Positions 240 through 12,313 of a stretch of DNA of 20,632 bases are shown piece after piece. Source of the DNA: a virus. The stretch's first letter is position 1; every line of letters starts with the position of its first letter. The DNA lies in the IMG/VR virus record IMGVR_UViG_3300033571_011456, positions 1-20,632 of that record; one strand, given 5' to 3'. The notes under the pieces are model-generated. The model made no database searches, had not been told where the DNA came from, and saw nothing but the letters and a program-made list of their open reading frames with translations. The translations under genes were made by a program, and so were the position numbers.

Positions 240-247
240 TTGATTGA

Positions 248-478: not shown

Positions 479-499
479 GGGAACCTCCAGGGTTAAGTC

Positions 500-516: not shown

Positions 517-526
517 TGACATTGTT

Positions 527-556
527 GTTATACAATAAACGCTTGACGCTTGTCAA
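527..556 (-). promoter_or_regulatory. Sigma-70-type promoter with palindromic -35 operator
   Basis: Minus-strand TTGACA at 556-551 and TATAAC at 532-527 are separated by 18 bases. The -35 box is part of TTGAC-N4-GTCAA, an exact inverted repeat, and belongs to the TTGACA-N5-CAAGC family found at seven places in this window (site 541-556). It drives the gene at 248-478 and probably the gene starting at 190. Confidence 0.75.
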
Positions 557-576
557 CAAGAAAAGTAGTACATATA

Positions 577-607
577 GAAAAAAAAACAGCCGGAACGGAT
601 CCGGCTG
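577..607 (-). terminator. Strong intrinsic terminator
   Basis: CAGCCGGA (587-594) and TCCGGCTG (600-607) form a perfect 8-bp stem with a five-base loop. On the minus strand it is followed at once by nine T residues (586-578). It lies 30 bases past the stop of the 637-1371 gene and ends that operon just before the next promoter. Confidence 0.9.
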
Positions 608-636
608 GAAGGAAAAGCTGAAATGACATCGACAGT

Positions 637-1371
637 CTACTCGGGATCCTCTGGCAGCTCAACAGTTAGCGGGATGATCATCCGGAAGCCCACGTCTCGC
701 CCATAGACATTGGCTGCGGCCGCATAGACAAATCGCCCAGTGCCACCCAGCCCGATCGGGACGATATCCTCTGCTTTGTACTGCCAGGACCCTCCCGTAC
801 AGTATCGCCTCTCGTACAGGTAGACGGCACCGCCAGGCTGCTCTACCGGCTCCAGCGGTGGTCCATCTGAGCACCACTGCCAGATACAGCCGAGAGTGTC
901 GAAGAGGCCGTAGGCATTCGGGCGGCTCATCCCTACCGGCTGCATCCAGGGCTGCCAGGCAAACGTGCCGAGGTCCTGCAGTCGCTCAGGACGCACACCA
1001 TCAGCCACCGCCAGCCCATAGGCCTCTTCGTAGGTCGGCAGACGGATCGTGCCGACATTATCGAGAAGACTGGCGAAGGTGAAGTTCAGGTCAGAGATAT
1101 ACTCGTCGACCATATCGAGACTGACATAGTTCGCGGGCAGTTCACCCTCAAAGGCACGGTTCACCCAGGTTTTCGTCCATTGCCTCGGCTCAGCCGCATA
1201 CGTCCGCCACTGGTCGCGGGTAATCGGCGTCAGGGATACCCAGCCGATCGGCGTCAGGCGAAAGACGATCGGACCTAGGACGAGGGTATTGTTGTCCGCC
1301 GTCACGTACAGATCGCTCGGTGGTGTACCCGCCAAGGCTTTGAGTGATCGAGTCAGGGTATCAGTTCTCAT
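637..1371 (-). CDS. FGE-sulfatase / C-type-lectin-fold protein, non-catalytic
   Basis: The 244-residue product carries the signature run of the formylglycine-generating-enzyme (SUMF1) and C-type-lectin fold: RLPTYEEAY (110-118), PNAYGLFDTLGCIWQWC (151-167), GGSW (193-196) and GRDVGFRMI (224-232). In catalytic FGE, paired cysteines sit just before the final GFR block. Here that stretch reads GRFVYAAAANVYGRDVGFR with no cysteine, so I infer a binding rather than an oxidase role. Phages use this fold for receptor or ligand binding, including as the variable protein of diversity-generating retroelements, but no reverse transcriptase or template repeat is visible here. The start ATG overlaps the TGA of the upstream regulator gene (ATGA), which implies coupled translation. 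The operon ends at the terminator at 577-607. Fold assignment is fairly sure; the role is open. Confidence 0.8.
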   Translation of the reverse strand: MRTDTLTRSLKALAGTPPSDLYVTADNNTLVLGPIVFRLTPIGWVSLTPITRDQWRTYAAEPRQWTKTWVNRAFEGELPANYVSLDMVDEYISDLNFTFASLLDNVGTIRLPTYEEAYGLAVADGVRPERLQDLGTFAWQPWMQPVGMSRPNAYGLFDTLGCIWQWCSDGPPLEPVEQPGGAVYLYERRYCTGGSWQYKAEDIVPIGLGGTGRFVYAAAANVYGRDVGFRMIIPLTVELPEDPE

Positions 1372-2180
1372 TGCTCTCCTTTGATCGAGAAGTAGGTGCG
1401 GACCGGTCCGCGCTGGCCAGTGTGCTGGCGCTCAGCCGAGAGTATATCCAGTTCCACCATCCTATTCAGCCAGACGAGGGCGTGATCACGGTTCGCGCCG
1501 ATCCCCTGGGCGATCGTGTCGACCTCGTTGCGACCGTCCTCACGGATCGCATACAGGATCCGCTCTTGAACCGATTGCTCTGGGATCTCGAGGATATAGC
1601 GCACCTCCTCCTCGGCGTAGGTGATTGCGTTGGATGCGAGTGGCACCACGGCAGCCAGTGCCCGTCCTGCGCCTTGGTAGGCCTCCCAGAGCCTCGGGAC
1701 GCGCTCATCCATACCTACAGGCGCAAGAGTCGCCGAAAGTGGCGCAGCCGTCGTTTCTGCGATCGCGCGACGCATCTGACGAACGGTCATCGTTTCCTCC
1801 ACGGCTCTGTCGAGGATCTCGATTGGCTCGGGTGACTGAGCCGCCACGACGAAATGAGAAAATTCCAGATTCGCCGGACGTTCGGCGAATCGCTCTTTGA
1901 ATGCCACGGCAAGCCGGTAGGCGGCTCGGTATTCGTAGATGCGTTGCGGGTGGCATCCGACTTCTGCTGCAAATTTCTCAACGGATCCCTGCCCGTAGTG
2001 CGTCTCGATGGATGCGGCAATGGCTGCCTGACGCCAGCGCTCTTCCGTCACACTGGCCTCTGCGTTATGCCAGGCGGCGACGTAGTCGGTCCAGGCGTGC
2101 GACGTGAATATCGGCAGGTCGTTGTCTGGGAACGCGAATCCGGCGACGACCAGATTCGTGGTGAGGGCGGTGTCTGACAA
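1368..2180 (-). CDS. DNA-binding regulator with two helix-turn-helix regions
   Basis: I choose the TTG start at 2180-2178 because GGAAGG lies just upstream; an ATG-like start farther up at 2216 has no such site. The 270-residue product has an HTH-like segment near residues 62-95 (GSVEKFAAEVGCHPQRIYEY) followed by a helical stretch. Residues 204-262 look like a winged helix, with VDTIAQGIGANRDHALVWLN as its recognition part and RTYFSI as the wing. This resembles phage or plasmid transcription regulators, but I cannot name a family. It is translationally coupled to the downstream FGE-fold gene. No clear minus-strand promoter is visible; the region upstream holds the plus-strand small RNA unit. 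Confidence 0.75.
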   Translation of the reverse strand: MSDTALTTNLVVAGFAFPDNDLPIFTSHAWTDYVAAWHNAEASVTEERWRQAAIAASIETHYGQGSVEKFAAEVGCHPQRIYEYRAAYRLAVAFKERFAERPANLEFSHFVVAAQSPEPIEILDRAVEETMTVRQMRRAIAETTAAPLSATLAPVGMDERVPRLWEAYQGAGRALAAVVPLASNAITYAEEEVRYILEIPEQSVQERILYAIREDGRNEVDTIAQGIGANRDHALVWLNRMVELDILSAERQHTGQRGPVRTYFSIKGEQ

Positions 2181-2202
2181 TGGGCCTTCCTTTCTAGCCT
2201 CT

Positions 2203-2231
2203 TTGACAGGGAACAAGCAATCGTCTATGAT
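2203..2231 (+). promoter_or_regulatory. Plus-strand sigma-70-type promoter for a small RNA
   Basis: TTGACA at 2203-2208 and TATGAT at 2226-2231 are exactly 17 bases apart. The -35 box continues as TTGACA-GGGAA-CAAGC (2203-2218), the same element found at six minus-strand promoters. Both flanking genes lie on the minus strand, and the predicted start, near 2238, leads straight into a terminator at 2286-2324. Confidence 0.75.
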
Positions 2232-2237
2232 TCGTCC

Positions 2238-2322
2238 GTTGCAAGGCTGTGTAGTAGCAGCAGCACAGTGAAAAAGGCAGCACGGGCCCGAGAGTTCAAG
2301 CCATACTCTCGGGCTTTCTTAT
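2238..2322 (+). ncRNA. Candidate phage small RNA, about 85 nt
   Basis: A near-consensus promoter, a short stretch without a convincing gene, and an intrinsic terminator define a self-contained plus-strand unit between two minus-strand genes. The predicted RNA has a 5' hairpin (CTGTG 2247-2251 with CACAG 2264-2268, a CAG-rich 12-base loop), an unpaired GAAAAAGG stretch, and a 9-bp terminator stem. The only start codon in the area, at 2227, lies inside the -10 box and would give 14 residues, so a protein is unlikely. Function is unknown; a base-pairing regulator or a decoy RNA are both possible. Confidence 0.6.
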
Positions 2323-2324
2323 TT
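2286..2324 (+). terminator. Intrinsic terminator of the plus-strand small RNA
   Basis: GCCCGAGAG (2286-2294) and CTCTCGGGC (2306-2314) form a perfect 9-bp stem with an 11-base loop, followed on the plus strand by TTTCTTATTT. Read on the minus strand the stem is followed by CCGTGC, so it works only in the plus direction, although both neighbouring genes are on the minus strand. Confidence 0.8.
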
Positions 2325-2938
2325 CACACCTTCGCGTAGGTTATCGATTGCTGGTCCTGATACTTCCCATCCCTGTCTTCGTAGCTCGTCCGCACCTCAC
2401 CCTTGATCGGGAAGAGTAGCAGCTGAGCAATTCCCTCTTTGGCATAGAGCTTGAGGTAGTTGTGTTTCTGTGCGTTGTAAAATTCGATCACTAGGTTTCC
2501 GTGCCAACCCGGCTCAAGCGGTGTCGTGTTGACGATCAGCCCACAGCGAGCATAGGTGGACTTGCCGATGCACAGGCCGATATGATCGCGTGGAATGGTG
2601 ATGTATTCGAGCGAGAGGCCGAGCGCATAATCGCCCGGCGCCATTCGCCAGTAGACTTCGTGTGTCTGCGGATCAGTGTCAGGTTGGATCTGAACGTAAT
2701 CGTCTGACTGAATGCGCTTAGGATCGATGGTCCCTGACTTCTCGCTCTTCAACCAAGGATTACGCGCTACGGCCAGTGACCCGGGATCGAGACGCAAGTC
2801 GTAGCCTGCTGAGGATAGGCCGTAGGATATGGTGGAAACGCTACTATGCGCTCGACACTGATCAGGCAGGAATGGCTCGACCATGTGTTTGTACTGCTCT
2901 TCCCGTAGTCTGATCCACTCGCTATCGCTGATTGGCAT
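2324..2938 (-). CDS. dcd: dCTP deaminase (Dcd/DUT superfamily)
   Basis: The 204-residue protein matches the trimeric dCTP deaminase/dUTPase fold. It has SSAGYDLRL (42-50, usual SSVGYDLRV), GKSTYARCGL (125-134), LEPGWHGNLVIEF (141-153) with the glutamate at 152 in the place of the catalytic residue, GIAQLLLF (169-176), and a C-terminal YQDQQ (193-197) matching the substrate-closing tail. The enzyme turns dCTP into dUTP, or into dUMP in bifunctional members; the sequence alone does not decide which. It supplies thymidylate precursors for phage replication. It is the last gene of the long minus-strand operon starting near 5538, and its start overlaps the previous gene by 17 bases. Its stop overlaps the end of the small-RNA terminator tract. 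Confidence 0.92.
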   Translation of the reverse strand: MPISDSEWIRLREEQYKHMVEPFLPDQCRAHSSVSTISYGLSSAGYDLRLDPGSLAVARNPWLKSEKSGTIDPKRIQSDDYVQIQPDTDPQTHEVYWRMAPGDYALGLSLEYITIPRDHIGLCIGKSTYARCGLIVNTTPLEPGWHGNLVIEFYNAQKHNYLKLYAKEGIAQLLLFPIKGEVRTSYEDRDGKYQDQQSITYAKV

Positions 2939-3143
2939 TTGCCGTCCCTCCGATCACTGACCAGTCGACGTTGCCCTCGAATGCAGTAGTGATCACGGAT
3001 CGCACCAGGTTGGACAGCGTCGGATCGTTGTACTTCTCTGTCATTTGCAGGATCTCAATCAAAGCTGACACGATCTCGTGCGGCTGGCTTACGGGCTGGT
3101 ATGGTGCCCTTGTAGTTTTGGATGAGGGCTTGCTTGTATTCAT
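2922..3143 (-). CDS. Small protein of unknown function (73 aa)
   Basis: The ATG at 3143 has AAGGAG seven bases upstream. The product begins MNTSKPSSKTTRAPYQPVSQ, a loose N-terminus, followed by two likely helices (HEIVSALIEILQMTEKYND and LSNLVRSVITTAFEG). No family is recognised. It overlaps the end of the upstream gene by 89 bases in the +1 frame and the start of dcd by 17 bases. Such a long overlap is unusual, but the ribosome binding site is good. A shorter form starting at the internal ATG before TEKYND is possible, with a poorer site. Confidence 0.6.
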   Translation of the reverse strand: MNTSKPSSKTTRAPYQPVSQPHEIVSALIEILQMTEKYNDPTLSNLVRSVITTAFEGNVDWSVIGGTANANQR

Positions 3144-3414
3144 TGTGGAACTCCTTCGTGATCATTTCGTAGACTTCATCGCTGACCCGGTCGACGTAGA
3201 CGATGGGCCTGTCATTGCTTGCATACTTCCAGCGCAAACGGAACGCCCACGTTCCCTTGCTCACCTTCACAGCCTCGACGTATGGCGTCTTATCGCGTCG
3301 TGTAGAGGCGGGACGCCCCCGCCGGCGGGCGACCGGCGAGAGCGTAGTGGGTGGTGGGATCGCTGGTGGTGCAGGCTGAGATACCGAGGAATCCTCGGCA
3401 GTTGGCTGGGACAC
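3055..3414 (-). CDS. Basic protein of unknown function (119 aa)
   Basis: I place the start at GTG 3414-3412, which shares one base with the TAG stop of the small membrane gene before it, pointing to coupled translation. The frame is open farther upstream to 3573, but that part overlaps the membrane gene and has no ribosome binding site. The N-terminal 30 residues are proline- and serine-rich, then RRRGRPASTRRDK is very basic. The rest (KGTWAFRLRWKYASNDRPIV onward) looks like a compact beta-alpha domain. The arginine patch suggests nucleic acid contact, by inference only. Its last 89 bases overlap the next gene. Confidence 0.6.
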   Translation of the reverse strand: MSQPTAEDSSVSQPAPPAIPPPTTLSPVARRRGRPASTRRDKTPYVEAVKVSKGTWAFRLRWKYASNDRPIVYVDRVSDEVYEMITKEFHNEYKQALIQNYKGTIPARKPAARDRVSFD

Positions 3415-3545
3415 TAGACTTTCGTGACGGCTTCCAGTAGCAGCGCTTTGCCGATGATCATCATCAGCTCGAACCGGTACGAGTACAGGAAGATCACGCC
3501 GATCAGGATCATCAAGGATAATAGGAACTTGTTGCCGCTGCTCAT
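3414..3545 (-). CDS. Very small single-span membrane protein (43 aa)
   Basis: ATG 3545-3543 is preceded by GGAGG at good spacing. The product begins MSSGNKFLLSLMILIGVIFL and continues with a short polar turn and a second hydrophobic stretch (LMMIIGKALLLEAV). It therefore has one clear transmembrane helix and perhaps a second membrane-bound segment. It follows a four-span membrane protein gene and overlaps the next start by one base. Function is unknown; size and context would allow an accessory holin, a superinfection or immunity factor, or a partner of the 198-residue membrane protein. Confidence 0.7.
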   Translation of the reverse strand: MSSGNKFLLSLMILIGVIFLYSYRFELMMIIGKALLLEAVTKV

Positions 3546-3612
3546 ATATTTGGCCTCCAGTGTTTTGTGTCATTGGTACGAAGAGAGTCGGGTTGACCAG
3601 TGATGGGACTGC

Positions 3613-3629
3613 GCCCGGACTGTCCGGGC
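3613..3629 (-). other. Hairpin directly after a stop codon
   Basis: GCCCGGAC (3613-3620) and GTCCGGGC (3622-3629) are perfect inverted repeats around a single base, forming in RNA a 6-bp stem with a five-base loop. It starts immediately after the stop codon of the 3630-4226 gene. There is no T run on the minus strand, so it may mark the mRNA 3' side or protect the message rather than end transcription. Confidence 0.5.
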
Positions 3630-4226
3630 CTATGCTTTTGGGTTTCGCGCCTCGGCTCCTAGTGGATAGTACGTCGTCGCACGTGCGAATCCAACTGGCG
3701 CACCACCCTGCCTGACGTCTTCCTCGATTGCATTGACGCGACGGGAAGCAATCGCGAAAAACACGATCGACAAGCCCAGCTCAAGAAACGCAAGCAGAGC
3801 GGCGATCATTGAGACGCCATCGCCGAAGGCCTGTTCCAGCTTTGTGGACTCGCGTGCTGAGAGGCCGATAGCGCTGGCAACGGCTCTCGTCTTGGCCTGA
3901 GCGGCTGCGCCCATAGCCGCCTCGAACTTCTTTACTTGCCCTTCGTTGAAGGACTGGACGCCCACGTTCCGCGCGCCATTGTGGACGATGTATCCAGCGT
4001 TGAGTGCGACGATCAAGCCAAGGATGACTTTCATCATCGTCTCACCGGGCACGATCTTCGCGTACAGGTAGGACGACGTGATACCCGCAACGATCGCCGA
4101 TGCCGCTACCCAGACGCCCAGCCTCTCGCCGTAGACGTGCCACCCGGCATAGCTGATTCCACCGATGATGATGGCGTGGATCATCAGAAACATAATCCAA
4201 TCGAACATTGAACGATTCTCGCTCAT
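3630..4226 (-). CDS. Four-span membrane protein of unknown function (198 aa)
   Basis: The start is ATG 4226-4224 with GGAGG eight bases upstream; an extended frame reaching 4391 overlaps the neighbouring gene and lacks a ribosome binding site. Hydrophobic segments lie near residues 8-30, 36-56, 64-82 and 139-160. Between the third and fourth is a polar, alanine-rich helical region (FEAAMGAAAQAKTRAVASAI), and the C-terminal 38 residues are polar. I know no family for it. It sits in an operon with DNA-processing and nucleotide genes, next to another membrane gene. It could affect the cell envelope or exclude other phages, but the sequence does not decide. Confidence 0.75.
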   Translation of the reverse strand: MSENRSMFDWIMFLMIHAIIIGGISYAGWHVYGERLGVWVAASAIVAGITSSYLYAKIVPGETMMKVILGLIVALNAGYIVHNGARNVGVQSFNEGQVKKFEAAMGAAAQAKTRAVASAIGLSARESTKLEQAFGDGVSMIAALLAFLELGLSIVFFAIASRRVNAIEEDVRQGGAPVGFARATTYYPLGAEARNPKA

Positions 4227-4242
4227 TCGTATAGCCTCCGTG

Positions 4243-4539
4243 TTATTTGAGATTGGCCCGTGTGCATTGGGACCACGGGACGGTTGCCAGTTGCTTTTTG
4301 CCCTCTGTGAGCGCCACCTCTTCCAGCCCTTGGACAAGAGCGTCCAAGTCAATTTTTTTGCCAACGCTCTGCCAGCGATCGCGAAAATCATGTCTCACCA
4401 CCCAGGTTTCACCGTCGATTGTCACCTCGCCGTAGGTCCGGCCTTCTGTGTACTCAATATTGCGGACGATGCGCTGGTGCCTGTCTGGCGGGCCGTTGGC
4501 GTTGCGGATGAAGATCTGCTGGTTGAGCTTGTCGATCAT
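4243..4539 (-). CDS. Small protein of unknown function (98 aa)
   Basis: ATG 4539 is preceded by CCGGAGG at correct spacing, and the gene lies neatly between neighbours. The product begins MIDKLNQQIFIRNANGPPDR and appears to hold a small beta-rich domain (GRTYGEVTIDGETWVVRHDF) followed by a helix (LDALVQGLEEVALTEGKK). No family is recognised. It is part of the operon running from 5538 to 2324, immediately downstream of the VRR-NUC gene. Confidence 0.75.
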   Translation of the reverse strand: MIDKLNQQIFIRNANGPPDRHQRIVRNIEYTEGRTYGEVTIDGETWVVRHDFRDRWQSVGKKIDLDALVQGLEEVALTEGKKQLATVPWSQCTRANLK

Positions 4540-4556
4540 ATGTCCTCCGGTTGTGT

Positions 4557-4949
4557 CTACAGTCGCCCTTCGAGGTAATCGATCAGGATTCCCTTTGCTT
4601 CCTCGAAGCTGTACGCGACAGCCACAAGGTTGCCCTGATCACTGAGCATCTCCATCCATCGCTTCTGATTCTCTGAGAGAGTCCCGCTTCCGGCCTTCAG
4701 TTCCAGATAGAGCGAGTGCCAGATGCGGCGGGCGACGGGAAGGACAAGATCAGGAACACCGCTCTTCATACCTTCCCGCTTCATTGCGATTGCCGTTCGT
4801 GCGCTGCGGTAGCCGCCATTCGGTACCGCATAGAGCAGCCGAAGCTCAGGGTATTGCTTCTCAACGAGCTGCGCCCATTGGATGAGCGTGGATTGCTGGG
4901 CGTGCTCCGATGGGATGAGCCGGTTCTTGTGCAGTTTGAATGCCTTCAT
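4557..4949 (-). CDS. VRR-NUC domain nuclease (PD-(D/E)XK type)
   Basis: The 130-residue protein matches the stand-alone phage VRR-NUC family: E15 with Q19 (SEHAQQSTLIQWA), AVPNGGYRS (41-49), GVPDLVL (64-70) with aspartate 67, LELK (82-85) with glutamate 83 and lysine 85, and Q95 in the helix after it. These are the metal-binding and catalytic positions of the restriction-endonuclease fold. The family cuts branched or structured DNA in known members, so a role in recombination or resolving replication intermediates is likely. The start overlaps the previous gene by 89 bases in the +1 frame. The conserved glutamate of motif I lies inside the overlap, so the overlap is real on this side. The ribosome binding site is modest (GAGA). 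Confidence 0.88.
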   Translation of the reverse strand: MKAFKLHKNRLIPSEHAQQSTLIQWAQLVEKQYPELRLLYAVPNGGYRSARTAIAMKREGMKSGVPDLVLPVARRIWHSLYLELKAGSGTLSENQKRWMEMLSDQGNLVAVAYSFEEAKGILIDYLEGRL

Positions 4950-5538
4950 TCTTGATTCTCTTGTTGTAGTCGTCCAGATACCGTTCGAGGTGCCGGACGA
5001 CTTCCTCTGTCAAATGTCGATCGTTTGTGATCTGGAACGCTGGCCGGTAATGATCGAGGATCAGTTCGCGCAGCCGGTGCAGGTGCAGGTAATGCTCTCT
5101 CTCGAAGCTCATTTCGTAGGCTGACAAAATCACACCCGTCCAGCCACGCAGAATGCCCTCACCGTCAAGGCGGATCGCCGTCGACGATGTCTTCCACGGT
5201 TCGAGCCGCACGATCTGCGCCTCAACTTGTGGAAGCTCAAATCGGATGCGTCGCCCTCTGGAATCGACAGGCACCCAGTCGTGGCTGGCCTCGTCGTCGA
5301 TCACAGATGCCACCTCACGGAAGCGGATCACCTGCCCATTGTAGGTCGTCTCAGCGTGCTGGATCCCGTCGATGAATCTGTACTTCGTCAGCCGAGTGAA
5401 CCAGTGGACTCGGTACCCGCTGGGCAGATCCACCTGCACGATCTCGACGTTGCGCCATTGATCCGGATGGATCGAGTGTGGCGGGATGCCTGTCCCTCGT
5501 CGAAAGTTGTCTGGTCGTTCGTGTTTGGGTGTTGCCAT
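4861..5538 (-). CDS. Protein of unknown function (225 aa), first gene of the dcd operon
   Basis: ATG 5538 is preceded by ACGGAGGACACA, a clear ribosome binding site, and by a candidate promoter at 5556-5585. The first 125 residues look beta-rich (VEIVQVDLPSGYRVHWFTRL, TTYNGQVIRFREV). Residues 135-200 are helical and charged (FEREHYLHLHRLRELILDHY onward). The tail (PAHPIGARPAIHAHPMGAAR) is low in complexity and lies in the 89-base overlap with the nuclease gene. I recognise no family. Position before a nuclease hints at DNA metabolism but proves nothing. Confidence 0.75.
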   Translation of the reverse strand: MATPKHERPDNFRRGTGIPPHSIHPDQWRNVEIVQVDLPSGYRVHWFTRLTKYRFIDGIQHAETTYNGQVIRFREVASVIDDEASHDWVPVDSRGRRIRFELPQVEAQIVRLEPWKTSSTAIRLDGEGILRGWTGVILSAYEMSFEREHYLHLHRLRELILDHYRPAFQITNDRHLTEEVVRHLERYLDDYNKRIKNEGIQTAQEPAHPIGARPAIHAHPMGAAR

Positions 5539-5555
5539 TGTGTCCTCCGTTGTGT

Positions 5556-5585
5556 AGCCTATGCCTGTTTATTGCCGATTGTCAA
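5556..5585 (-). promoter_or_regulatory. Candidate promoter of the long operon, shared operator motif
   Basis: TTGACA at 5585-5580 is followed 18 bases later by TAGGCT (5561-5556), a poor -10 box. The -35 region reads TTGACA-N5-CAATA, a two-base variant of the motif seen at the other promoters in this arm (site 5570-5585). It lies in the only gap between the loader gene and the gene starting at 5538. The shared motif supports it more than the -10 box does. Confidence 0.5.
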
Positions 5586-5590
5586 GTGGC

Positions 5591-6232: not shown

Positions 6233-6926
6233 TGTGTGATTCCTCTAGTTTGGCAACTTGCTGTCTGTACCTGTCACGCATTCCTGTCACGTTGCGGGTT
6301 GAATACCGATTGTCGCGCCAGTCCTCGCAGATCGTCCGCCATAGGTCCAAGTTCGCGATCCCGGCTGCGTCGATCACTTCCTGCGAGTAGATGGGCATTT
6401 GCGGAAACACCTCAAGCAGGATTGATACCGCATCGGGTTGCGCGCTGATCACCGCAAGATCACGCGAGTGCGACACCTCTTCGCGCGCGCGCGTTTCCCT
6501 CTCGATCTTTTTGTTATTAGTCTTTTTATTATCAGTCTTGTTAGACTTCCCAGAGGGAAGTACATTACTTCCCTCTGGGAAGTGCGATACTTCCCTCTGG
6601 GAAGTACTGTCATTGCTTCCCTGTGGGAAGTTCTGACGGCGGATCAGCCGGTAGATCGTCGGTCCAGAAAACTGCTTCTGACGTGCTATCCAGCCATTGT
6701 CTTCCAGCTCTCGAATAGCCTTGGCGATTGTCTTTGGTGTCCATCCTGTCTGCTGCTGGATGAGCGTGTAGGAAGGGAACGCCTTGCCGCTCTTGCCATT
6801 CGTGTATCGTCTGAGCAGCACGTAGAGCCATCGAGATTGATCCGATAGATCAGAAGCGGCATCAATGAACTCGTTCGGTATCGTGGCAAAGGCACCGATC
6901 TCGTCATAGATATGTGAGTGGGACAT
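6057..6926 (-). CDS. Replication initiator with winged-helix (HTH_36) N-terminus
   Basis: The start is ATG 6926-6924, five bases after GGAGG. The 289-residue protein opens with a winged helix-turn-helix of the HTH_36 type (YTNGKSGKAFPSYTLIQQQT and TPKTIAKAIRELEDNGWIAR, residues 41-82), typical of phage and plasmid replication initiators. A polar linker (residues 99-150) is encoded by four DNA palindromes and an AT-rich tract, the probable origin. The C-terminal part (residues 160-235) contains PDAVSILLEVFPQM and a tryptophan-rich helix and may contact the loader. This arrangement mirrors lambda gene O. The leader is about 160 bases long and contains a terminator-like fold abutting the ribosome binding site. 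The next gene begins inside its last 176 bases. Confidence 0.85.
   Translation of the reverse strand: MSHSHIYDEIGAFATIPNEFIDAASDLSDQSRWLYVLLRRYTNGKSGKAFPSYTLIQQQTGWTPKTIAKAIRELEDNGWIARQKQFSGPTIYRLIRRQNFPQGSNDSTSQREVSHFPEGSNVLPSGKSNKTDNKKTNNKKIERETRAREEVSHSRDLAVISAQPDAVSILLEVFPQMPIYSQEVIDAAGIANLDLWRTICEDWRDNRYSTRNVTGMRDRYRQQVAKLEESHNGQTGIQSRVNRLSANEHAARQTFELMFPGSTTGTQNGPAQLDSADAPSEQLTLVRRR
6506..6631 (-). other. Predicted replication origin inside the initiator gene
   Basis: Four 17-bp palindromes, ACTTCCC-NNN-GGGAAGT, lie at 6545-6561, 6567-6583, 6589-6605 and 6615-6631. The first three have perfect 7-bp arms; the fourth begins with G. Centres are 22, 22 and 26 bases apart, close to two helical turns, so all face roughly the same side. 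Directly beside them 6506-6545 is strongly AT-rich (TCTTTTTGTTATTAGTC and on), suited to unwinding. Lambda ori has the same design: four initiator sites next to an AT-rich tract within the initiator gene. The repeats encode the protein linker, so the DNA sites rather than the protein are probably under selection. Confidence 0.8.
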
Positions 6927-6936
6927 CTCTACCTCC

Positions 6937-7027: not shown

Positions 7028-7092
7028 CTGTTAATTGCAGTTTCCCGTTGGTGGCCTGCTACTACCGGGCGTCACTCCGGCGGCCAAGTCTT

Positions 7093-7120
7093 ATTATTCA
7101 CACCGCTTGCGAGTTGTCAA
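7093..7120 (-). promoter_or_regulatory. Promoter of the replication initiator
   Basis: TTGACA at 7120-7115 and AATAAT at 7098-7093 are 16 bases apart. The -35 element is TTGACA-N5-CAAGC (site 7105-7120), an exact member of the shared set. Transcription from here would make a leader of about 160 bases before the initiator ATG at 6926. Confidence 0.75.
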
Positions 7121-7125
7121 GAGGG

Positions 7126-7186
7126 AAGGGCTTTACTTGAGGCTGATTCAAGTAATGAATCAAGTAAACAATCAAGTAAAGCCCTT
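7126..7186. repeat. 15-bp inverted repeat enclosing three 12-bp-spaced direct repeats
   Basis: AAGGGCTTTACTTGA (7126-7140) and TCAAGTAAAGCCCTT (7172-7186) are exact 15-bp inverted copies. The octamer TCAAGTAA occurs at 7148, 7160 and 7172, exactly 12 bases apart, plus once inverted at 7133-7140. The block lies five bases upstream of the -35 box of the initiator promoter, between it and the stop of the previous gene. It looks like an array of protein-binding sites (activator, or initiator autocontrol). No T run follows the hairpin on the minus strand, so it is not a typical terminator. Confidence 0.75.
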
Positions 7187-7193
7187 GCCTGCC

Positions 7194-7646
7194 CTACCGC
7201 CAGAAGCTGCAGGCGTTGCTGCGATTTTCCGCCACCAAGTGAAGGATTTCGCCATACTCTTTCCGGACGTCCGGAGAGTTCGCGCTCAGATAGCGGTTGA
7301 CGGCCTCTTCGAGTGTGATCCGTGGCACCACTCGCAAGCTCACCAGCACCGGCTGGTCCACAAAGGCCGCCGCTCCTGCGATATAGTCCGCCAGCTCGTC
7401 CGCACGCTTGAATGGGTTGCGCTGAATGGCAATCTGCACAGCCACACTCGCCCGCTCATATCGGGCAAGATCGGTCGACAGCCGCCGGATCTGCGTTAAA
7501 TAGGTGAAGCCTTCCACCCGCTGCACAATGCCCGCACCGACCACCAGCACGACGGCTGGGCGCGGGTTGCGCTCTTTGAGCAATGCCTCGTGGTTGTCGA
7601 TGCAGATCGAAGGGATCAAACTCAAAAGAATCGTTGCAAGAATCAT
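7194..7646 (-). CDS. Protein with hydrophobic N-terminal segment, unknown function (150 aa)
   Basis: ATG 7646-7644 follows GGAGGACACT, a standard site for this arm; a longer frame to 7748 would read through a strong terminator hairpin. The product begins MILATILLSLIPSICIDNHE, which may be a signal anchor, and continues VVLVVGAGIVQRVEGFTYLT. The remainder is helical and charged (RRLSTDLARYERASVAVQIA onward). No family is recognised. The intrinsic terminator at 7662-7694 ends only six bases before the ribosome binding site, so expression probably depends on read-through of that terminator. Confidence 0.7.
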   Translation of the reverse strand: MILATILLSLIPSICIDNHEALLKERNPRPAVVLVVGAGIVQRVEGFTYLTQIRRLSTDLARYERASVAVQIAIQRNPFKRADELADYIAGAAAFVDQPVLVSLRVVPRITLEEAVNRYLSANSPDVRKEYGEILHLVAENRSNACSFWR

Positions 7647-7661
7647 AGTGTCCTCCAGGGT

Positions 7662-7694
7662 AAAAAAAGGGCAGACAGCGCGTGCCGCCTGCCC
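7662..7694 (-). terminator. Strong intrinsic terminator abutting a ribosome binding site
   Basis: On the minus strand GGGCAGG (7694-7688) pairs with TCTGCCC (7675-7669). An inner CGGC-ACGC-GCTG stem extends it to 11 bp with a tetraloop, followed by seven T residues (7668-7662). The GGAGG of the next gene starts six bases later. This placement is unlike a terminator closing an operon and suggests regulated read-through. Confidence 0.85.
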
Positions 7695-7699
7695 AGCCA

Positions 7700-7890
7700 A
7701 GAAAAGAGAGTGTTGCGTGCAACCAATAGATGCGTTTGATTCGCCCACGTTGGGCTCGGTGTGCGCCTCACCGGAAGGTATTGGCAGGTCGCGGGATCTC
7801 CGCTCAAGCTCTCAGGTGGCTGAAGGTGACGGCCCCGTCACGCCTTGAGCCACCTCTACCTGGTGCTGTCTACAGGGGGCTGTAGACAGC
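7700..7890 (-). ncRNA. Structured leader or non-coding RNA upstream of a terminator
   Basis: The 306 bases between the HTH gene and the gene starting at 7646 hold no credible protein gene but several paired elements: a perfect 10-bp inverted repeat GCTGTCTACA/TGTAGACAGC (7865-7874 and 7881-7890), a 42-base hairpin with outer arms AGGTGGCT/AGCCACCT (7814-7821 and 7848-7855), GCCCA/TGGGC (7743-7755) and GTTGC/GCAAC (7714-7725). Bases 7802-7808 (GCTCAAG) can alternatively pair with 7844-7850, competing with the 42-base hairpin. The set ends in the terminator at 7662-7694. It may be a separate RNA or a regulatory leader; no known class is recognised. Confidence 0.5.
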
Positions 7891-7952
7891 TTCGAGAGCG
7901 TAATAAAAGAACATCCTGCCAAACTTGTTCAATTTCGTGTTTCATTCGCGTT

Positions 7953-8201
7953 TCATTTCCACTGCCGCCGCCCGTCTTTGCGGATCGGGCGCGCTCGGTA
8001 GGCGGCCAGATAATCCAGCACGGCCTGCCCTGTCACATAGTACGTCAGCTTCCGTCCGACGTTCTCAATCGTCGTGTACTCAAGCCGATTCAGCGCAAAC
8101 AGCAGGTGCACGTTCTGACGGCTGCATCCAAGCCACTCAGCCACCTGCGTCGGCGAGTATTTGCCGTCCGGGTCGATGCGTTTTGTTGTCGTTGCGTTCA
8201 T
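7953..8201 (-). CDS. Excisionase-like helix-turn-helix protein (82 aa)
   Basis: The product begins MNATTTKRIDPDGKYSPTQV and carries a MerR/excisionase-type HTH (YSPTQVAEWLGCSRQNVHLL, residues 15-34) followed by a short wing (GRKLTYYVTGQAVLDYLAAY). Such small proteins bind DNA as excisionases or as regulators. The chosen ATG (8201-8199) lies seven bases after the -10 box of the promoter at 8209-8237, with no room for a ribosome binding site, so the mRNA is probably leaderless. An upstream in-frame ATG at 8231 would overlap the -35 box. No integrase is visible, so a regulator role is at least as likely as excision. Confidence 0.8.
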   Translation of the reverse strand: MNATTTKRIDPDGKYSPTQVAEWLGCSRQNVHLLFALNRLEYTTIENVGRKLTYYVTGQAVLDYLAAYRARPIRKDGRRQWK

Positions 8202-8208
8202 AGCGTCA

Positions 8209-8237
8209 ATCCTAGTCGGCTGCTTGCTCATTGTCAA
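8209..8237 (-). promoter_or_regulatory. Promoter of the HTH gene, probably giving a leaderless mRNA
   Basis: TTGACA at 8237-8232 and TAGGAT at 8214-8209 are 17 bases apart, and the next ATG is only seven bases downstream. The -35 element is TTGACA-N5-CAAGC (site 8222-8237), an exact match to the shared motif. Confidence 0.7.
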
Positions 8238-8238
8238 G

Positions 8239-8454
8239 CTATGCCGCTTCCCAAGCAATTGCACCACTCGGCTGCATCGTCCCGTAGATCTGGCGCATCT
8301 CGCCACCGCCTAGGTCAGCAAAGCCCACGTGCGTCGCAGTCGTGTCGTGCGCCTCGGCGTCCTGCCCGAACACCTCAGTCGGCACCAGCTCGTACACTGC
8401 CACCTCGACGTCGTGATACTCAGTCCCGTCAATCGTCAGCCATTCCAGAATCAT
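8239..8454 (-). CDS. Small acidic protein of unknown function (71 aa)
   Basis: ATG 8454-8452 follows GGAGGGCGCA. The product begins MILEWLTIDGTEYHDVEVAV and ends GTMQPSGAIAWEAA; it looks like a small beta-rich domain with no recognised family. It is the last gene of the small-gene block that starts at 9821, and a UNCG hairpin (8478-8495) lies between it and the gene before it. Its stop sits just upstream of the promoter of the HTH gene. Confidence 0.75.
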   Translation of the reverse strand: MILEWLTIDGTEYHDVEVAVYELVPTEVFGQDAEAHDTTATHVGFADLGGGEMRQIYGTMQPSGAIAWEAA

Positions 8455-8477
8455 TGCGCCCTCCACTGTGTTGAGTG

Positions 8478-8495
8478 CGGGGGCCGGAGCCCCCG
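8478..8495 (-). repeat. Intercistronic UNCG hairpin, copy 1
   Basis: CGGGGGC-CGGA-GCCCCCG on the plus strand, read in the mRNA as a 7-bp stem closed by C(UCCG)G, an extra-stable UNCG tetraloop. It lies between the genes at 8501-8749 and 8239-8454, before the ribosome binding site. No T run follows, so it is not a standard terminator. Confidence 0.8.
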
Positions 8496-8500
8496 GCGTG

Positions 8501-8749
8501 TTATACCCGCACCGCCCAAGCGTTGCGCCCCATTCCGTCGCCGCCGACGAGAAACTCGTGCTCATCCAGCGTGACGTGGAAGATGCCGCCGTCGAACGCA
8601 CAGGCCAGATAGTACCCACCATCTATGATGGCGTCTCTGACAGTTTGATTCTCGTGGCCGATGGCAAAGCCCTTGCCCTCGGCGTTGAGCTGGCTATACA
8701 GGTCAGCGGCTTCGTCTCGCGTGTATTGCTTGGTGACTTGCGTTTTCAT
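8501..8749 (-). CDS. Small protein of unknown function (82 aa)
   Basis: ATG 8749 follows AAAGGAAAACACG. The product begins MKTQVTKQYTRDEAADLYSQ, has a helix at its start and a glycine-rich, probably beta-rich middle (IIDGGYYLACAFDGGIFHVT). No family is recognised. Its first four residues match those of the gene at 9333-9536. Unlike four neighbours it has no UNCG hairpin in its upstream spacer; only 24 bases separate it from the previous stop. Confidence 0.75.
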   Translation of the reverse strand: MKTQVTKQYTRDEAADLYSQLNAEGKGFAIGHENQTVRDAIIDGGYYLACAFDGGIFHVTLDEHEFLVGGDGMGRNAWAVRV

Positions 8750-8773
8750 CGTGTTTTCCTTTGGTGTTGCTGT

Positions 8774-8992
8774 CTACTCTTCCCGGTCGTGGAAATAGCG
8801 GTCGATGTCTGTCAGGTCGCGGATAAATGCGTCGACCTGGCTCATCGGCTCTGGCGCTGCCGGCTCGTCGATCCCGAGCAGCTGACGCGCCTCTGCATAT
8901 ACCGCGGCTGTCTGCTCTGGTGTCAAGGCGCTGGCGATCTGTGGGACGTCCTCGTCGTCCCACTGCGGCTCAAGGTGACTGATCAGGATCAT
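8774..8992 (-). CDS. Small acidic helical protein of unknown function (72 aa)
   Basis: ATG 8992 follows AAGGAGGACACT at ideal spacing. The product begins MILISHLEPQWDDEDVPQIA and is mostly helical and acidic (LTPEQTAAVYAEARQLLGID, FIRDLTDIDRYFHDREE). No family is recognised. A UNCG hairpin (9014-9031) precedes its ribosome binding site. Confidence 0.78.
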   Translation of the reverse strand: MILISHLEPQWDDEDVPQIASALTPEQTAAVYAEARQLLGIDEPAAPEPMSQVDAFIRDLTDIDRYFHDREE

Positions 8993-9013
8993 AGTGTCCT
9001 CCTTGTGTTGATG

Positions 9014-9031
9014 CGGGGGCCGGAGCCCCCG
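9014..9031 (-). repeat. Intercistronic UNCG hairpin, copy 2
   Basis: Same 18-base sequence as copy 1, CGGGGGC-CGGA-GCCCCCG, between the genes at 9038-9253 and 8774-8992. It is followed in the mRNA by a CAACACAAGGAGG context shared with other members. Confidence 0.8.
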
Positions 9032-9037
9032 GCTGTA

Positions 9038-9253
9038 TTAGTCTTCGGCGCGCCCTAGCAGCGTGTCGAGTCGCCTGGCGGCCAGCGTGTACAAGTCAAA
9101 ATTGTACGTCCAAGGACAACCTAGGCGGCCAGCCGCTTCTTCTTCCTCCCAGTAGGATTCTGAGAGGAATTGTTGTAGTTTCCATTCAGGCCATGTGGGG
9201 ATGTCCTTTTCAAATTGTTCCCGTTGCCGCTTAAAAAATTCTGCTGTGTACAT
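9038..9253 (-). CDS. Small acidic protein of unknown function (71 aa)
   Basis: ATG 9253 follows AGAGGAGGAATT. The product begins MYTAEFFKRQREQFEKDIPT and is rich in aromatic and acidic residues (WEEEEAAGRLGCPWTYNFDL). It looks helical throughout. No family is recognised. A UNCG hairpin (9275-9292) lies just upstream of its ribosome binding site. Confidence 0.78.
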   Translation of the reverse strand: MYTAEFFKRQREQFEKDIPTWPEWKLQQFLSESYWEEEEAAGRLGCPWTYNFDLYTLAARRLDTLLGRAED

Positions 9254-9274
9254 AATTCCTCCTCTGGTGTGTTG

Positions 9275-9292
9275 CGGGGGCCGGAGCCCCCG
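9275..9292 (-). repeat. Intercistronic UNCG hairpin, copy 3
   Basis: CGGGGGC-CGGA-GCCCCCG again, between the genes at 9333-9536 and 9038-9253. The flank on the 5' side of the mRNA (GGTAGTCACACCAC) is shared with copy 4, so a longer cassette than the hairpin has been copied. Confidence 0.8.
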
Positions 9293-9332
9293 GTGGTGTG
9301 ACTACCGCACAGTACCAGTACCGTCAACGCGC

Positions 9333-9536
9333 CTATTTGGGCGACGCCTTGGGGTGCATCCGCAGCAATCTTCGCGCCTCGCGCTTGCGTCGGGCGAGCT
9401 CGTCGTGACGGTGTACGACCGCCCAATAGGCTCGGTCGATGACGCGATCTCCGCTGAGTCCACTTGGTGGGAACAAGTGCCGGAGGATTCTCAGCGTGCG
9501 CTGAGCTATCTCGAGTATCTGCATCTGTGTTTTCAT
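9333..9536 (-). CDS. Small basic protein of unknown function (67 aa)
   Basis: ATG 9536 follows AAGGGAGGCACG. The product begins MKTQMQILEIAQRTLRILRH and ends in an arginine-rich helix (DELARRKREARRLLRMHPKA), so it may contact nucleic acid. No family is recognised. It is flanked by UNCG hairpins on both sides. Confidence 0.72.
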   Translation of the reverse strand: MKTQMQILEIAQRTLRILRHLFPPSGLSGDRVIDRAYWAVVHRHDELARRKREARRLLRMHPKASPK

Positions 9537-9558
9537 CGTGCCTCCCTTGTGTTGTTGC

Positions 9559-9574
9559 GGGGGCCGGAGCCCCC
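9559..9574 (-). repeat. Intercistronic UNCG hairpin, copy 4
   Basis: GGGGGC-CGGA-GCCCCC with a 6-bp stem; the outer C-G pair of the other copies is lost (C then T). It lies between the genes at 9585-9821 and 9333-9536. Confidence 0.8.
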
Positions 9575-9584
9575 TGTGGTGTGA

Positions 9585-9821
9585 CTACCGGCTGACGCGC
9601 CAGGTACGGGAACGCCGCGGGCTCATCCAATACTGGGTGATAGCGGGCCAGCCGGGCAATGACGTCCCGCAGGACTCGTCCCACGTGATCTCGAGGTACA
9701 TCCCATTTGGCGTTCGGTACTCCTCGCGGTGAGCCGATCCGCTTACGCGGCCAGACTCGGAGACGAGCAGTGTGCTGTTCTTGGCGATGGTTGCGATTCG
9801 GGTCATTTCGTTGTGCGTCAT
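9585..9821 (-). CDS. Small protein of unknown function (78 aa), first of the small-gene block
   Basis: ATG 9821 follows AAAGGAGACAGT and lies downstream of a promoter and leader hairpin (9843-9900). The product begins MTHNEMTRIATIAKNSTLLV. After residue 45 it becomes tryptophan- and arginine-rich (ITQYWMSPRRSRTWRVSR). A second frame over the same bases (from about 9684) also reads plausibly (RVLRDVIARLARYHPVLDEP), so a natural frameshift or a sequencing indel cannot be excluded. The stop of the chosen frame falls exactly at the edge of the repeated hairpin cassette, which favours it. Confidence 0.65.
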   Translation of the reverse strand: MTHNEMTRIATIAKNSTLLVSESGRVSGSAHREEYRTPNGMYLEITWDESCGTSLPGWPAITQYWMSPRRSRTWRVSR

Positions 9822-9842
9822 ACTGTCTCCTTTGTGGTGTTG

Positions 9843-9869
9843 CGGGAGCCCATCTCCCTCTGACAGTGT
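9843..9869 (-). promoter_or_regulatory. Conserved leader element, hairpin copy A
   Basis: These 27 bases are identical to 12257-12283. In the mRNA they read ACACTGTCAG, then GGGAG-ATGGG-CTCCC, a 5-bp stem. Both copies come directly after a promoter of the shared set and before the ribosome binding site of the first gene. Confidence 0.75.
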
Positions 9870-9870
9870 C

Positions 9871-9900
9871 TTTATCTCATACTTGCTTGACGCGTGTCAA
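9871..9900 (-). promoter_or_regulatory. Promoter of the small-gene block
   Basis: TTGACA at 9900-9895 lies in TTGACA-CGCGT-CAAGC (site 9885-9900), an exact member of the shared motif with a nearly perfect palindrome TTGAC-N4-GTCAA. The best -10 is GATAAA (9876-9871) at 18 bases, weaker than in the other members. A divergent plus-strand -10 box lies 38 bases beyond it. Confidence 0.6.
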
Positions 9901-9937
9901 GAGCTATTTTTGATTATGGCAAAAAAAGTTTTCGGGC

Positions 9938-9943
9938 TATACT
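9938..9943 (+). promoter_or_regulatory. Plus-strand -10 box, possible leaderless start
   Basis: TATACT lies six bases before ATG 9950, so a transcript from it would begin at or next to the start codon. No good -35 is seen, but a seven-base A run and a T-rich stretch lie upstream. It faces away from the promoter at 9871-9900. Confidence 0.4.
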
Positions 9944-9949
9944 AGACAC

Positions 9950-10111
9950 ATGGAAAGCGTCTCATCTCTACCGATTCCCTGTCCCGAGGTGCTGGGCACA
10001 CTGGCAGGCGACTGCGCCATTTGTGGTCGCTGGTCGGACACGGCCTGCCACCGGGACGACATCCTCGACAAGACCAGGCCGCATCGTATATCTCAAGCAG
10101 CTTTTTCCTGA
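9950..10111 (+). CDS. Small cysteine-rich protein, possible zinc knuckle (53 aa)
   Basis: This plus-strand frame stands alone among minus-strand genes. The product begins MESVSSLPIPCPEVLGTLAG and has C11, C22-x2-C25 and C33-H34 (DCAICGRWSDTACH), a spacing that could bind one zinc ion. It has no ribosome binding site; the -10 box at 9938-9943 would give a leaderless message. It ends 17 bases before the converging end of the ibrB-like gene. The cysteine pattern and promoter support it, but the size and lack of a ribosome binding site keep confidence moderate. Confidence 0.45.
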   Translation: MESVSSLPIPCPEVLGTLAGDCAICGRWSDTACHRDDILDKTRPHRISQAAFS

Positions 10112-10128
10112 CGTTTGGCGAGTCGTGG

Positions 10129-10836
10129 TCAGTGAGTTTCCAGAGCTGGAGCGTTACACATAGCCTCTTCCTGCCACTCGACCTCCCAAGCTTCTGTAAA
10201 ATCCTTCGCCGCGAACATCTCCGCAAGTCCTTGAATTCCGCTGATCTGCGTCAATCGCAAAACCTCATCCGCCTCCATCCCCAATTCTTTGGCGATGCGC
10301 TCATCCGTCCAACACCGCCGCTTGAGTTCCACAATAATCTCGGACATTGAATCAACCCGATGCTTGCCCCGGGCTCGATTGTGGCGAATCGTGGCAGCCA
10401 TCCGGTCGTTGCGGTCTTCGCGGTTGTGGTTGATCGTCACCACGGGCAGGTATCCCCGGATCCGTTCGCGCACTGTTTTCGATTCCTTGCCAACCCGGTT
10501 GCGGTGGAACCCGTCAATCACCTCGCGGTGGCCGTCTGCTGCCCACGTGACGATCGGTTGCGTGTATCCGTCCTGAAGAATTGAGTGCTCAAGCAGCTTC
10601 ATCTCTGGCGGGGCGACGGAGTTGGGATTGTAGTCGTTGGCCTGGACGTCTTCTCCCTGAACCCACTGCACGCAGTCGACCGGCTCATCTCGAAACGGAG
10701 AAACCTCGTGAAGCTGAAGCCTGACTTGATTCAGCACCTCGACTTTGCTCTCCTCGCCCAGCATTTGGATCCGATGGCATAGGTTTCGAGCATCCTCCAG
10801 GATGCGATCAATCTCGTATTGGTCAAATAGATTCAT
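10129..10836 (-). CDS. ibrB: IbrB-like ParB/sulfiredoxin-domain protein
   Basis: The start ATG shares its A with the TAA stop of the ibrA-like gene (TAATG), so the two are coupled. The 235-residue product has a ParB-type N-terminal domain with the key block DGHREVIDGFHRNRVG (101-116), preceded by LLEHSILQDGYTQPIV. An HTH near the C-terminus reads WTDERIAKELGMEADEVLRL. ParB-like proteins paired with PAPS-reductase-like proteins are known as IbrB and IbrA, first described in Escherichia coli prophage elements as activators of eib genes. ParB domains of this type can be nucleotide-dependent clamps or nucleases. The biochemical role of the pair is not established. No terminator with a T run is evident after it. 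Confidence 0.8.
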   Translation of the reverse strand: MNLFDQYEIDRILEDARNLCHRIQMLGEESKVEVLNQVRLQLHEVSPFRDEPVDCVQWVQGEDVQANDYNPNSVAPPEMKLLEHSILQDGYTQPIVTWAADGHREVIDGFHRNRVGKESKTVRERIRGYLPVVTINHNREDRNDRMAATIRHNRARGKHRVDSMSEIIVELKRRCWTDERIAKELGMEADEVLRLTQISGIQGLAEMFAAKDFTEAWEVEWQEEAMCNAPALETH

Positions 10837-12053
10837 TAGAAGATCCCCCACTTCTCTCGACGTTTACGCATCAGCACCAAATATCGCTCGTAGGCCGTTG
10901 AACGGTGTGGGCTGAATGACAGCCCCTTGCACCAGTAGTCATTCCTTAGTAGAGCCTTGGCGATGCGCTTCCAGTTGAAATGCCCCTTGGTGATCGGGCC
11001 ATCGTCCGCCATGTCGTCAATCGTCTGGCCCCGATCCAGAAACCACTTGATAAAAATCGTGATCTTGGCCTCGTAATGCTCGCGCGTCTTGACGGGCATC
11101 GAGTCCAGCAGCAATCGCACAAACGATTTCCACGTATGACCGGGTGGCTTGTTGATCTCGAAGTTGCCCAGGATGTTACCGCGCTCTTTGGCGTAGAGCG
11201 CACCAGCATTGGCACCGTTGACCCGGGCCACAATCCTTGCCCACGTTTCCGGCTCAATAACCTGGAACAGCCAGAGCCCTTTGCGCTGATCATCCCCGTA
11301 GGGCTGGCAGATGCGCATCTGGGGCAGAGTCAGGCCTGCCTGGTACATTCGATCGTAGAGCCGGTTGTAGGGCGTTTGAGTCTTTGCGTGATACGTCCAG
11401 AGGTCCGTCTCGTGCCAATCATAGATTGGGTAGATGTTGCAGACCGATGGGCTGATCAGGCTGGTGTAGTTGCGGTCGTCGACCTTTGCACCGTGGCCTG
11501 CAATGGTCCGCCATCGGTTGAGGCTTTCACGTGACCGAATTCCCACAAAGCAAGCGGCCGTCTGCCCTTGCGCATACCAGTCCCCGAAGGCCGGCACAAA
11601 CTCCTCGAACTCCATTGCGTGATGGTAGAATGGGAAAGTGGCGGGATCGGTGATCGCTGTTGCTGGTGGCTGACGGATCCAAGCCTCTTCCTTGCCAGGC
11701 TCCCAGCAAATCCAATGGGAATCAAACTGACTGACGGCGTTTCGGAGATGGATCGGTAAGCAGACCCAATAGGGGGCAATCCAGTCTCGGTATTGATGAA
11801 AACAGGCAAGCGCGTGGTCGACCGTGAGCTTGTACTGTCCCTCGAGGTCGACCAGCAGCACGCCAACTCGACGCTGGCGACGGATCGCTTCCTCCATTAC
11901 CAAATGAAGCATCACGGTCGAGTCCTTGCCAGCGGAAAATGACACGTAGATCCGCTCGAACTGATCAAACGTCCAAGCGATACGTTGGCGCGCGGCCTCC
12001 AGGACGTTGATCCCGAGGCCGCGCTTGATGGGCTTGCAGTTGTCGTGCTTCAT
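10836..12053 (-). CDS. ibrA: IbrA-like PAPS-reductase-family protein
   Basis: The 405-residue protein has a PP-loop ATP pyrophosphatase motif SFSAGKDST (38-46; usual SGGKDS) near its N-terminus, preceded by RIYVSF and followed by VMLHLVMEEA. The middle contains APYWVCLPIHLRNAVSQFDS and WICWEPGKEEAW, and the C-terminus ends in a DUF3440-like helical region (DDGPITKGHFNWKRIAKALL). This is the phosphoadenosine-phosphosulfate-reductase-like family called IbrA. PP-loop enzymes adenylate a substrate before sulfur or nitrogen transfer; what this one acts on is unknown. It is followed by its usual ParB partner and preceded six bases upstream by a 56-residue gene. The alanine in the loop instead of the second glycine is a small departure from the family pattern. 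Confidence 0.85.
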   Translation of the reverse strand: MKHDNCKPIKRGLGINVLEAARQRIAWTFDQFERIYVSFSAGKDSTVMLHLVMEEAIRRQRRVGVLLVDLEGQYKLTVDHALACFHQYRDWIAPYWVCLPIHLRNAVSQFDSHWICWEPGKEEAWIRQPPATAITDPATFPFYHHAMEFEEFVPAFGDWYAQGQTAACFVGIRSRESLNRWRTIAGHGAKVDDRNYTSLISPSVCNIYPIYDWHETDLWTYHAKTQTPYNRLYDRMYQAGLTLPQMRICQPYGDDQRKGLWLFQVIEPETWARIVARVNGANAGALYAKERGNILGNFEINKPPGHTWKSFVRLLLDSMPVKTREHYEAKITIFIKWFLDRGQTIDDMADDGPITKGHFNWKRIAKALLRNDYWCKGLSFSPHRSTAYERYLVLMRKRREKWGIF

Positions 12054-12059
12054 GGTGCC

Positions 12060-12230
12060 TCACGCGATCGTTGCTGCATACTCAGCCGCAAACCGATGCT
12101 CGGCCGTTACATCGTCTTCGCTTTCGGGCTCGCCATCGTCCCACGTGATAAAGTTGCAGTCGCAAGGCCCTTCGTGCTGATCGCAAGGGGTGTTCCAACC
12201 GTTCACGTCGCCCAAGTATTTCTGTGCCAT
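12060..12230 (-). CDS. Small acidic cysteine-containing protein (56 aa)
   Basis: ATG 12230-12228 follows AAAGGAGATACAACG. The product begins MAQKYLGDVNGWNTPCDQHE and includes C16, C23 and C25 (TPCDQHEGPCDCNF) with H19, then a strongly acidic tail. The cysteine and histidine group could hold a metal. It is first in the operon with the ibrA/ibrB-like pair, six bases upstream of ibrA, and directly behind the best promoter in the window. No family is recognised; it may be a third component of that system. Confidence 0.75.
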   Translation of the reverse strand: MAQKYLGDVNGWNTPCDQHEGPCDCNFITWDDGEPESEDDVTAEHRFAAEYAATIA

Positions 12231-12256
12231 CGTTGTATCTCCTTTGGTGTTATATC

Positions 12257-12283
12257 CGGGAGCCCATCTCCCTCTGACAGTGT
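12257..12283 (-). promoter_or_regulatory. Conserved leader element, hairpin copy B
   Basis: All 27 bases match 9843-9869. The transcript from the promoter at 12286-12313 is expected to begin near GTCAG at about 12279, right before the GGGAG/CTCCC stem, as at the other two promoters with this element. Confidence 0.75.
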
Positions 12284-12285
12284 TG

Positions 12286-12313
12286 ATTATATATAGTTCT
12301 TTACGCTTGTCAA
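12286..12313 (-). promoter_or_regulatory. Near-consensus promoter of the ibrAB operon
   Basis: TTGACA at 12313-12308 and a perfect TATAAT at 12291-12286 are 16 bases apart. The shared operator motif is present as TTGACA-AGCGT-AAAGA (site 12298-12313), with two changes from CAAGC. Confidence 0.85.

Follow-up and report, generated by a model that had tools for sequence, protein, structure and literature searches.

Putative lineage-specific operators on the early promoters of an uncultured phage

The stretch analysed here (the window) is the entire IMG/VR record IMGVR_UViG_3300033571_011456, 20,632 bases of viral DNA classed as linear and probably a fragment. Its early arm, in which genes were called here from open reading frames (ORFs), Shine-Dalgarno sites and homology, carries seven copies of a promoter-associated element, TTGACA-N5-CAAGC. 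All seven lie at the coordinates and on the strands given in a preliminary description of this DNA (distances in nucleotides [nt]):

541..556, minus strand: putative operator/promoter, TTGACAAGCGTCAAGC, a perfect TTGAC-N4-GTCAA; -10 box TATAAC at 18 nt
2203..2218, plus strand: putative operator/promoter, TTGACAGGGAACAAGC; -10 box TATGAT at 17 nt; the sole rightward copy
5570..5585, minus strand: partial putative operator/promoter, TTGACAATCGGCAATA; weak -10 box TAGGCT
7105..7120, minus strand: putative operator/promoter of the replication gene, TTGACAACTCGCAAGC; -10 box AATAAT at 16 nt
8222..8237, minus strand: putative operator/promoter of the small helix-turn-helix (HTH) gene, TTGACAATGAGCAAGC (GCTTG-N8-CAAGC); -10 box TAGGAT at 17 nt
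9885..9900, minus strand: putative operator/promoter, TTGACACGCGTCAAGC, a perfect CTTGAC-N4-GTCAAG; weak -10 box
12298..12313, minus strand: partial putative operator/promoter, TTGACAAGCGTAAAGA; perfect -10 box TATAAT at 16 nt

As first reported, five copies are exact (541, 7105, 8222 and 9885 on the minus strand and 2203 on the plus strand) and two are partial, with the CAAGC half replaced by CAATA at 5570 and by AAAGA at 12298. The pattern has 11 fixed bases, and dinucleotide shuffles of the 20.6 kb predict 0.01 exact copies. The symmetric core TTG-N8-CAA noted earlier is present at six of the seven sites and fails at one; two copies had been called near-perfect palindromes, and those at 541 and 9885 are perfect TTGAC-N4-GTCAA. 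The elements lie in gene-free gaps, as had been claimed: no coding base falls within the seven 16-mers, and by our own gene calls gaps make up only 12.4% of the early arm. All seven sites read as σ70-type promoters. The -10-like box attributed to each is good at 541, 2203, 7105, 8222 and 12298, and weak at 5570 (TAGGCT) and 9885 (GATAAA).

Because a -35 box alone would already give TTGACA, the CAAGC half was tested separately. CAA stands at the fixed offset from 6 of the 11 TTGACA hexamers of the window, compared with 4 of the 192 hexamers that differ from it at a single base; the four or so TTGACA hexamers outside the seven elements lack CAA at that offset. In none of 40,000 resamplings did five of 11 sites share a 5-mer at one fixed offset (maximum, 4). 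The CAAGC half is real and exceeds what a -35 box needs, as the preliminary description had argued. A looser family allowing three mismatches is mostly chance (73 found versus 50 expected).

Terminase and protein searches yielded about 20 related uncultured phage contigs and no close cultured relative, the terminase being at most ~33% identical to any among 50,697 phage records. Only one relative, G012, clearly shares the element. This 49.4-kb contig is collinear with the early arm of the window, with roughly 35 to 71% protein identity, and both records are possibly incomplete. Perfect TTGAC-N4-GTCAA occurs four times in G012 versus 0.07 expected, and two more copies have one mismatch. All six are on early-strand promoters, and two are homologous to window sites:

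G012 3068, early strand: TTGACGTCGGTCAA
G012 3949, early strand: TTGACGACCGTCAA
G012 5563, early strand: TTGACCGGCGACAA; counterpart of window 8222
G012 16193, early strand: TTGACGTCCGACAA
G012 16316, early strand: TTGACGGCCGTCAA; counterpart of window 541, with the same ACAACAATGTCAG leader
G012 47601, early strand: TTGACGGCCGTCAA

Two of these sites, 5563 and 16193, overlap the 3' end of the ORF before them, and the other four lie in gaps. The dyad is cleaner in G012 than in the window, with arms of up to 8 bases (TACTTGAC-N4-GTCAAGTA at 3068 and 3949), and where it becomes perfect the -35 box has turned into TTGACG or TTGACC. More distant relatives have TTGACA promoters at matching places without the element, which on sequence comparison marks the element as lineage specific. 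Counting palindromes in sister phages turned up nothing comparable at the early promoters there, the exact motif was absent from the terminase-related phages, and scans for further operator-bearing relatives, by leader pattern and by the protein encoded at 7194-7748, returned only G012. Conservation of the CAAGC half in relatives, which the preliminary description had asked about, was found in G012 at the counterparts of 541 and 8222 and not in the other relatives. Cross-genome position weight matrix (PWM) scans also produced isolated look-alikes at L043 3106 (TTGACAAATAGCAAGA) and L038 4963 (TTGACAAAATGCAAGC), which were rejected. A scan for ACTTGACGNNCGTCAAG returned 64 stretches, nearly all of them lone sites in unrelated phages, and their neighbouring genes named no regulator.

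On balance, the seven elements probably serve a single dimeric DNA-binding regulator as its operators; a repressor encoded by the phage is the likeliest candidate. This reading is based on the recurrence of the site, its restriction to promoters, its dyad symmetry and its conservation in the collinear G012. The dyad is centred near -29 and extends over the -35 box and the adjoining upstream half of the spacer, a usual place for a site that blocks RNA polymerase. G012 spoils its -35 box in favour of a perfect dyad, so the constraint is not that of a promoter only, which would keep TTGACA. A regulator bound there, over the -35 box, would block RNA polymerase, and because of this position repression is the likelier direction of control; such a repressor would shut down the 2203 transcript along with the early arm. 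That the regulator is phage encoded, and most likely the 7953-8201 protein, is suggested less strongly.

The preliminary description had named two HTH proteins as candidate binders:

7953..8201, minus strand: small winged-helix protein, 82 amino acids (aa), favoured candidate regulator; weak HTH_17 match and AlphaFold2 (AF2) model
1368..2180, minus strand: ParB-like HTH protein with a C-terminal winged helix, 270 aa, less likely binder

The smaller is now favoured, as its own promoter bears the site in both the window and G012, and it would then also control that promoter. Its HTH_17 match is below threshold, the AF2 model is a winged helix (mean pLDDT, 79.5), and its nearest folds are Pukovnik Xis and BldC, with weak scores (Foldseek E value of 0.02 at best). 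The recognition helix reads CSRQNV in both the window and G012 proteins despite ~35% overall identity, and RQTV in the sister-phage homologues. The distance from the -10 box to the start codon of this gene is 6 to 8 nt in seven of seven phages (7 nt in the window, start at 8201), so its mRNA should be leaderless, a predicted property conserved in all seven. In sister phages, the small-HTH promoter diverges from a second early promoter ~33 bp away. Just upstream of the small-HTH promoter, G012 encodes a stand-alone NrdR-type zinc-ribbon protein (5270-5566).

A bolder version, possible but doubtful, would give the role of master early repressor to a stand-alone winged-helix protein of the Xis/BldC kind, translated from a leaderless mRNA, in a phage group without a recognizable C1-type repressor or tyrosine integrase; its palindromic operators would have been acquired by one lineage only, on early promoters whose architecture the group shares. 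HTH_3 (C1/Cro-type) and tyrosine integrase had no match over the cut-off in the window or G012, other repressor and integrase families not having been searched.

Several observations weigh against these interpretations. Three window sites have imperfect right halves. At the G012 counterpart of 5570 the promoter with CCACTTGAC is kept and the second half of the operator is lost, and the 7105 promoter and its GGAGTGACGCCC leader are kept in sister phages and G012 without the operator, of which the G012 counterpart has lost the second half. The operator is common to two genomes only, and the cross-genome PWM scans ranked the strongest sites at the top and did not separate weaker ones from background. 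The proposal of a shared operator is partly supported: the palindrome stands at the early promoters of G012, the nearest relative that has the early arm, and finds no counterpart in the other relatives. As for the favoured candidate, CSRQNV is weak evidence because RQ-V occurs in all homologues, and Xis/BldC-like winged-helix proteins are known to bind direct repeats, not palindromes (for BldC, PMC5859096).

The main rival explanation is that a CRP/FNR-family regulator of the host (FNR, ANR or HcpR type) recognizes the sites as its boxes, in which case phage early transcription would follow host oxygen, NO or redox state. The sites fit the TTGAC/T-N4-A/GTCAA geometry of this family. Against it, FNR does not usually activate from a position near -29, where the dyads are centred. 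TTGAC-N4-GTCAA is the HcpR motif of some deltaproteobacteria and two cyanobacteria (PMC1274295), and a putative Anr box of this form lies over the -35 box of Pseudomonas aeruginosa katAp2, centred at -29 (PMC4974557). CRP-type HTH domains over the cut-off are absent from the window and G012, and several occur in a Chloroflexota metagenome-assembled genome (MAG) that holds the sole cellular match to the terminase. However, this single match, at 47% identity, is a weak link, and for that reason infection of Chloroflexota bacteria by the phage is suggested only tentatively; in this MAG, an uncertain host, one such box was found in 4.6 Mb (equal to the control) compared with four in the 49 kb of G012. 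Sister phages also lack an FNR-like box, and a host regulator of this kind is considered unlikely. The literature on LexA in Chloroflexi gave nothing usable.

Slightly better placed, although still improbable, is binding by another phage-encoded regulator, either the 1368-2180 protein or an unassigned small early protein. In its favour, the window is a fragment, many of the small early proteins matched no known family, and the 1368-2180 protein has 71% identity between the two operator-bearing phages. Against this, no similarity at an E value of 1e-4 links the small early proteins encoded in the window to those of G012, and the 1368-2180 protein is the poorer candidate because it and its HTH are kept in operator-less phages, where the gene adjoins clusters of a different palindrome, CCAC-NN-GTGG. 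It is very unlikely that there is no operator at all and that CAAGC reflects a spacer preference of the host's sigma factor or the spread of promoter copies through duplication. All seven sites are indeed promoters, and an identical 27-nt leader repeat at 9843-9869 and 12257-12283 implies that some promoter-leader units were duplicated, but flanks and leaders differ among most of the seven sites, homologous promoters of sister phages lack CAAGC, and G012 gives up its -35 box for symmetry.

Taken as putative operators of a phage-encoded repressor, the elements resemble a phage repressor regulon. As in lambda, where the cI mRNA from PRM is leaderless, palindromic operators lie over early promoters and the mRNA of the candidate regulator is predicted to be leaderless; unlike in lambda, there is one operator per promoter and the candidate is a stand-alone winged helix, nor does any HTH_3 or tyrosine integrase match over the cut-off in the window or G012 point to a temperate switch of the lambda type. 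The repressor of mycobacteriophage L5 (cluster A) is likewise one regulator with many sites per phage, oriented with transcription and varying between related phage lineages, but there a monomer binds asymmetric 13-mers, most of which lie away from promoters (PMC9283540, PMC6550527), whereas the sites described here are palindromic, all at promoters and number six to seven per genome. An L5-type stoperator system is ruled out by the perfect palindromes (541, 9885 and four in G012) and the -10-like box at all seven sites. CRP/FNR boxes share the 5-4-5 geometry and, in G012, the same letters (yTTGAC-N4-GTCAAr), and differ in that neither phage has a CRP/FNR gene over the cut-off and the box is not enriched in the candidate host MAG. 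Small Xis/BldC/MerR-like winged-helix proteins share the predicted fold of the 7953-8201 protein, but characterized members bind direct repeats or curved att DNA.

The comparisons indicate a real, lineage-specific set of putative operators on phage early promoters, and hence an early-gene regulon open to testing in an uncultured phage group without a close cultured relative. The presence of operators in one lineage and their absence from the homologous promoters of its sisters offer an example of rewired regulation on a promoter architecture that has been conserved, and the FNR-like form of the sites makes a dependence of phage early transcription on host redox state a possibility that can be checked. 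Clusters of CCAC-NN-GTGG, leader stem-loops and iterons in the replication gene are perhaps as interesting as the operator set.

CCAC-NN-GTGG (often TGCCAC-NN-GTGGCA) forms clusters of 4 to 8 copies per ~1 kb, compared with 0.1 to 0.6 expected per record, and spacing is similar between phages:

Window 13409, 13447, 13604 and 13905, and G012 46661-47506: CCAC-NN-GTGG at the early/late junction
L038-L047 and L049: CCAC-NN-GTGG upstream of the 1368-2180 homologue

In most relatives, the palindromes lie just upstream of the ParB-like gene and are candidate binding sites of its product. The fold of the 1368-2180 protein matches ParB/Noc-like proteins weakly, and the protein more likely belongs to this palindrome, which its family tracks, than to the operator. 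No ParA-type ATPase was found in the phage group.

The 2203 promoter precedes a putative small RNA:

2238..2325, plus strand: putative small RNA of ~90 nt from the 2203 promoter, predicted from sequence

Its 3' end is terminator-like, with a 12-bp GC-rich hairpin followed by a U-rich stretch (-36 kcal/mol; z = -3.5). No equivalent was found in the corresponding gap of G012.

Early transcripts start with a stem-loop consisting of an outer stem, a small 5' bulge, a GC inner stem and a 6-nt loop, mostly AAUGNN or AGUGAC:

Window, just downstream of the 541, 7105, 9885 and 12298 promoters, and G012 3068, 3949, 6817 and 47601: leader stem-loop
Sister phages G010, G008, G004, L040, L042, L043, L045, L053 and L054: leader stem-loop

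Hand alignment gave a consensus fold with some compensatory changes; automatic alignment gave none, and there was no Rfam match. These leaders may be nut/put-like or translational.

Palindromic iterons of the form ACTTCCC-N3-GGGAAGT, ~22 bp apart, lie inside the O-like replication gene (three at window 6545-6605 and four at G010 4980-5066) and are likely a replication origin. Directly upstream of the 7105 promoter, a 19-nt inverted repeat (7122-7190; 95% complementary, 31 nt apart) contains several ACTTGA repeats. Two proteins encoded at G012 155-2316 (minus strand) resemble Cas5/Cas7-like subunits by eye only, with no Pfam match. Near-identical GC hairpins (GGGGGCTCCGGCCCCC) occur at window 8476, 9012, 9273 and 9556 on the minus strand, each ahead of a ribosome-binding site in a run of small early genes.

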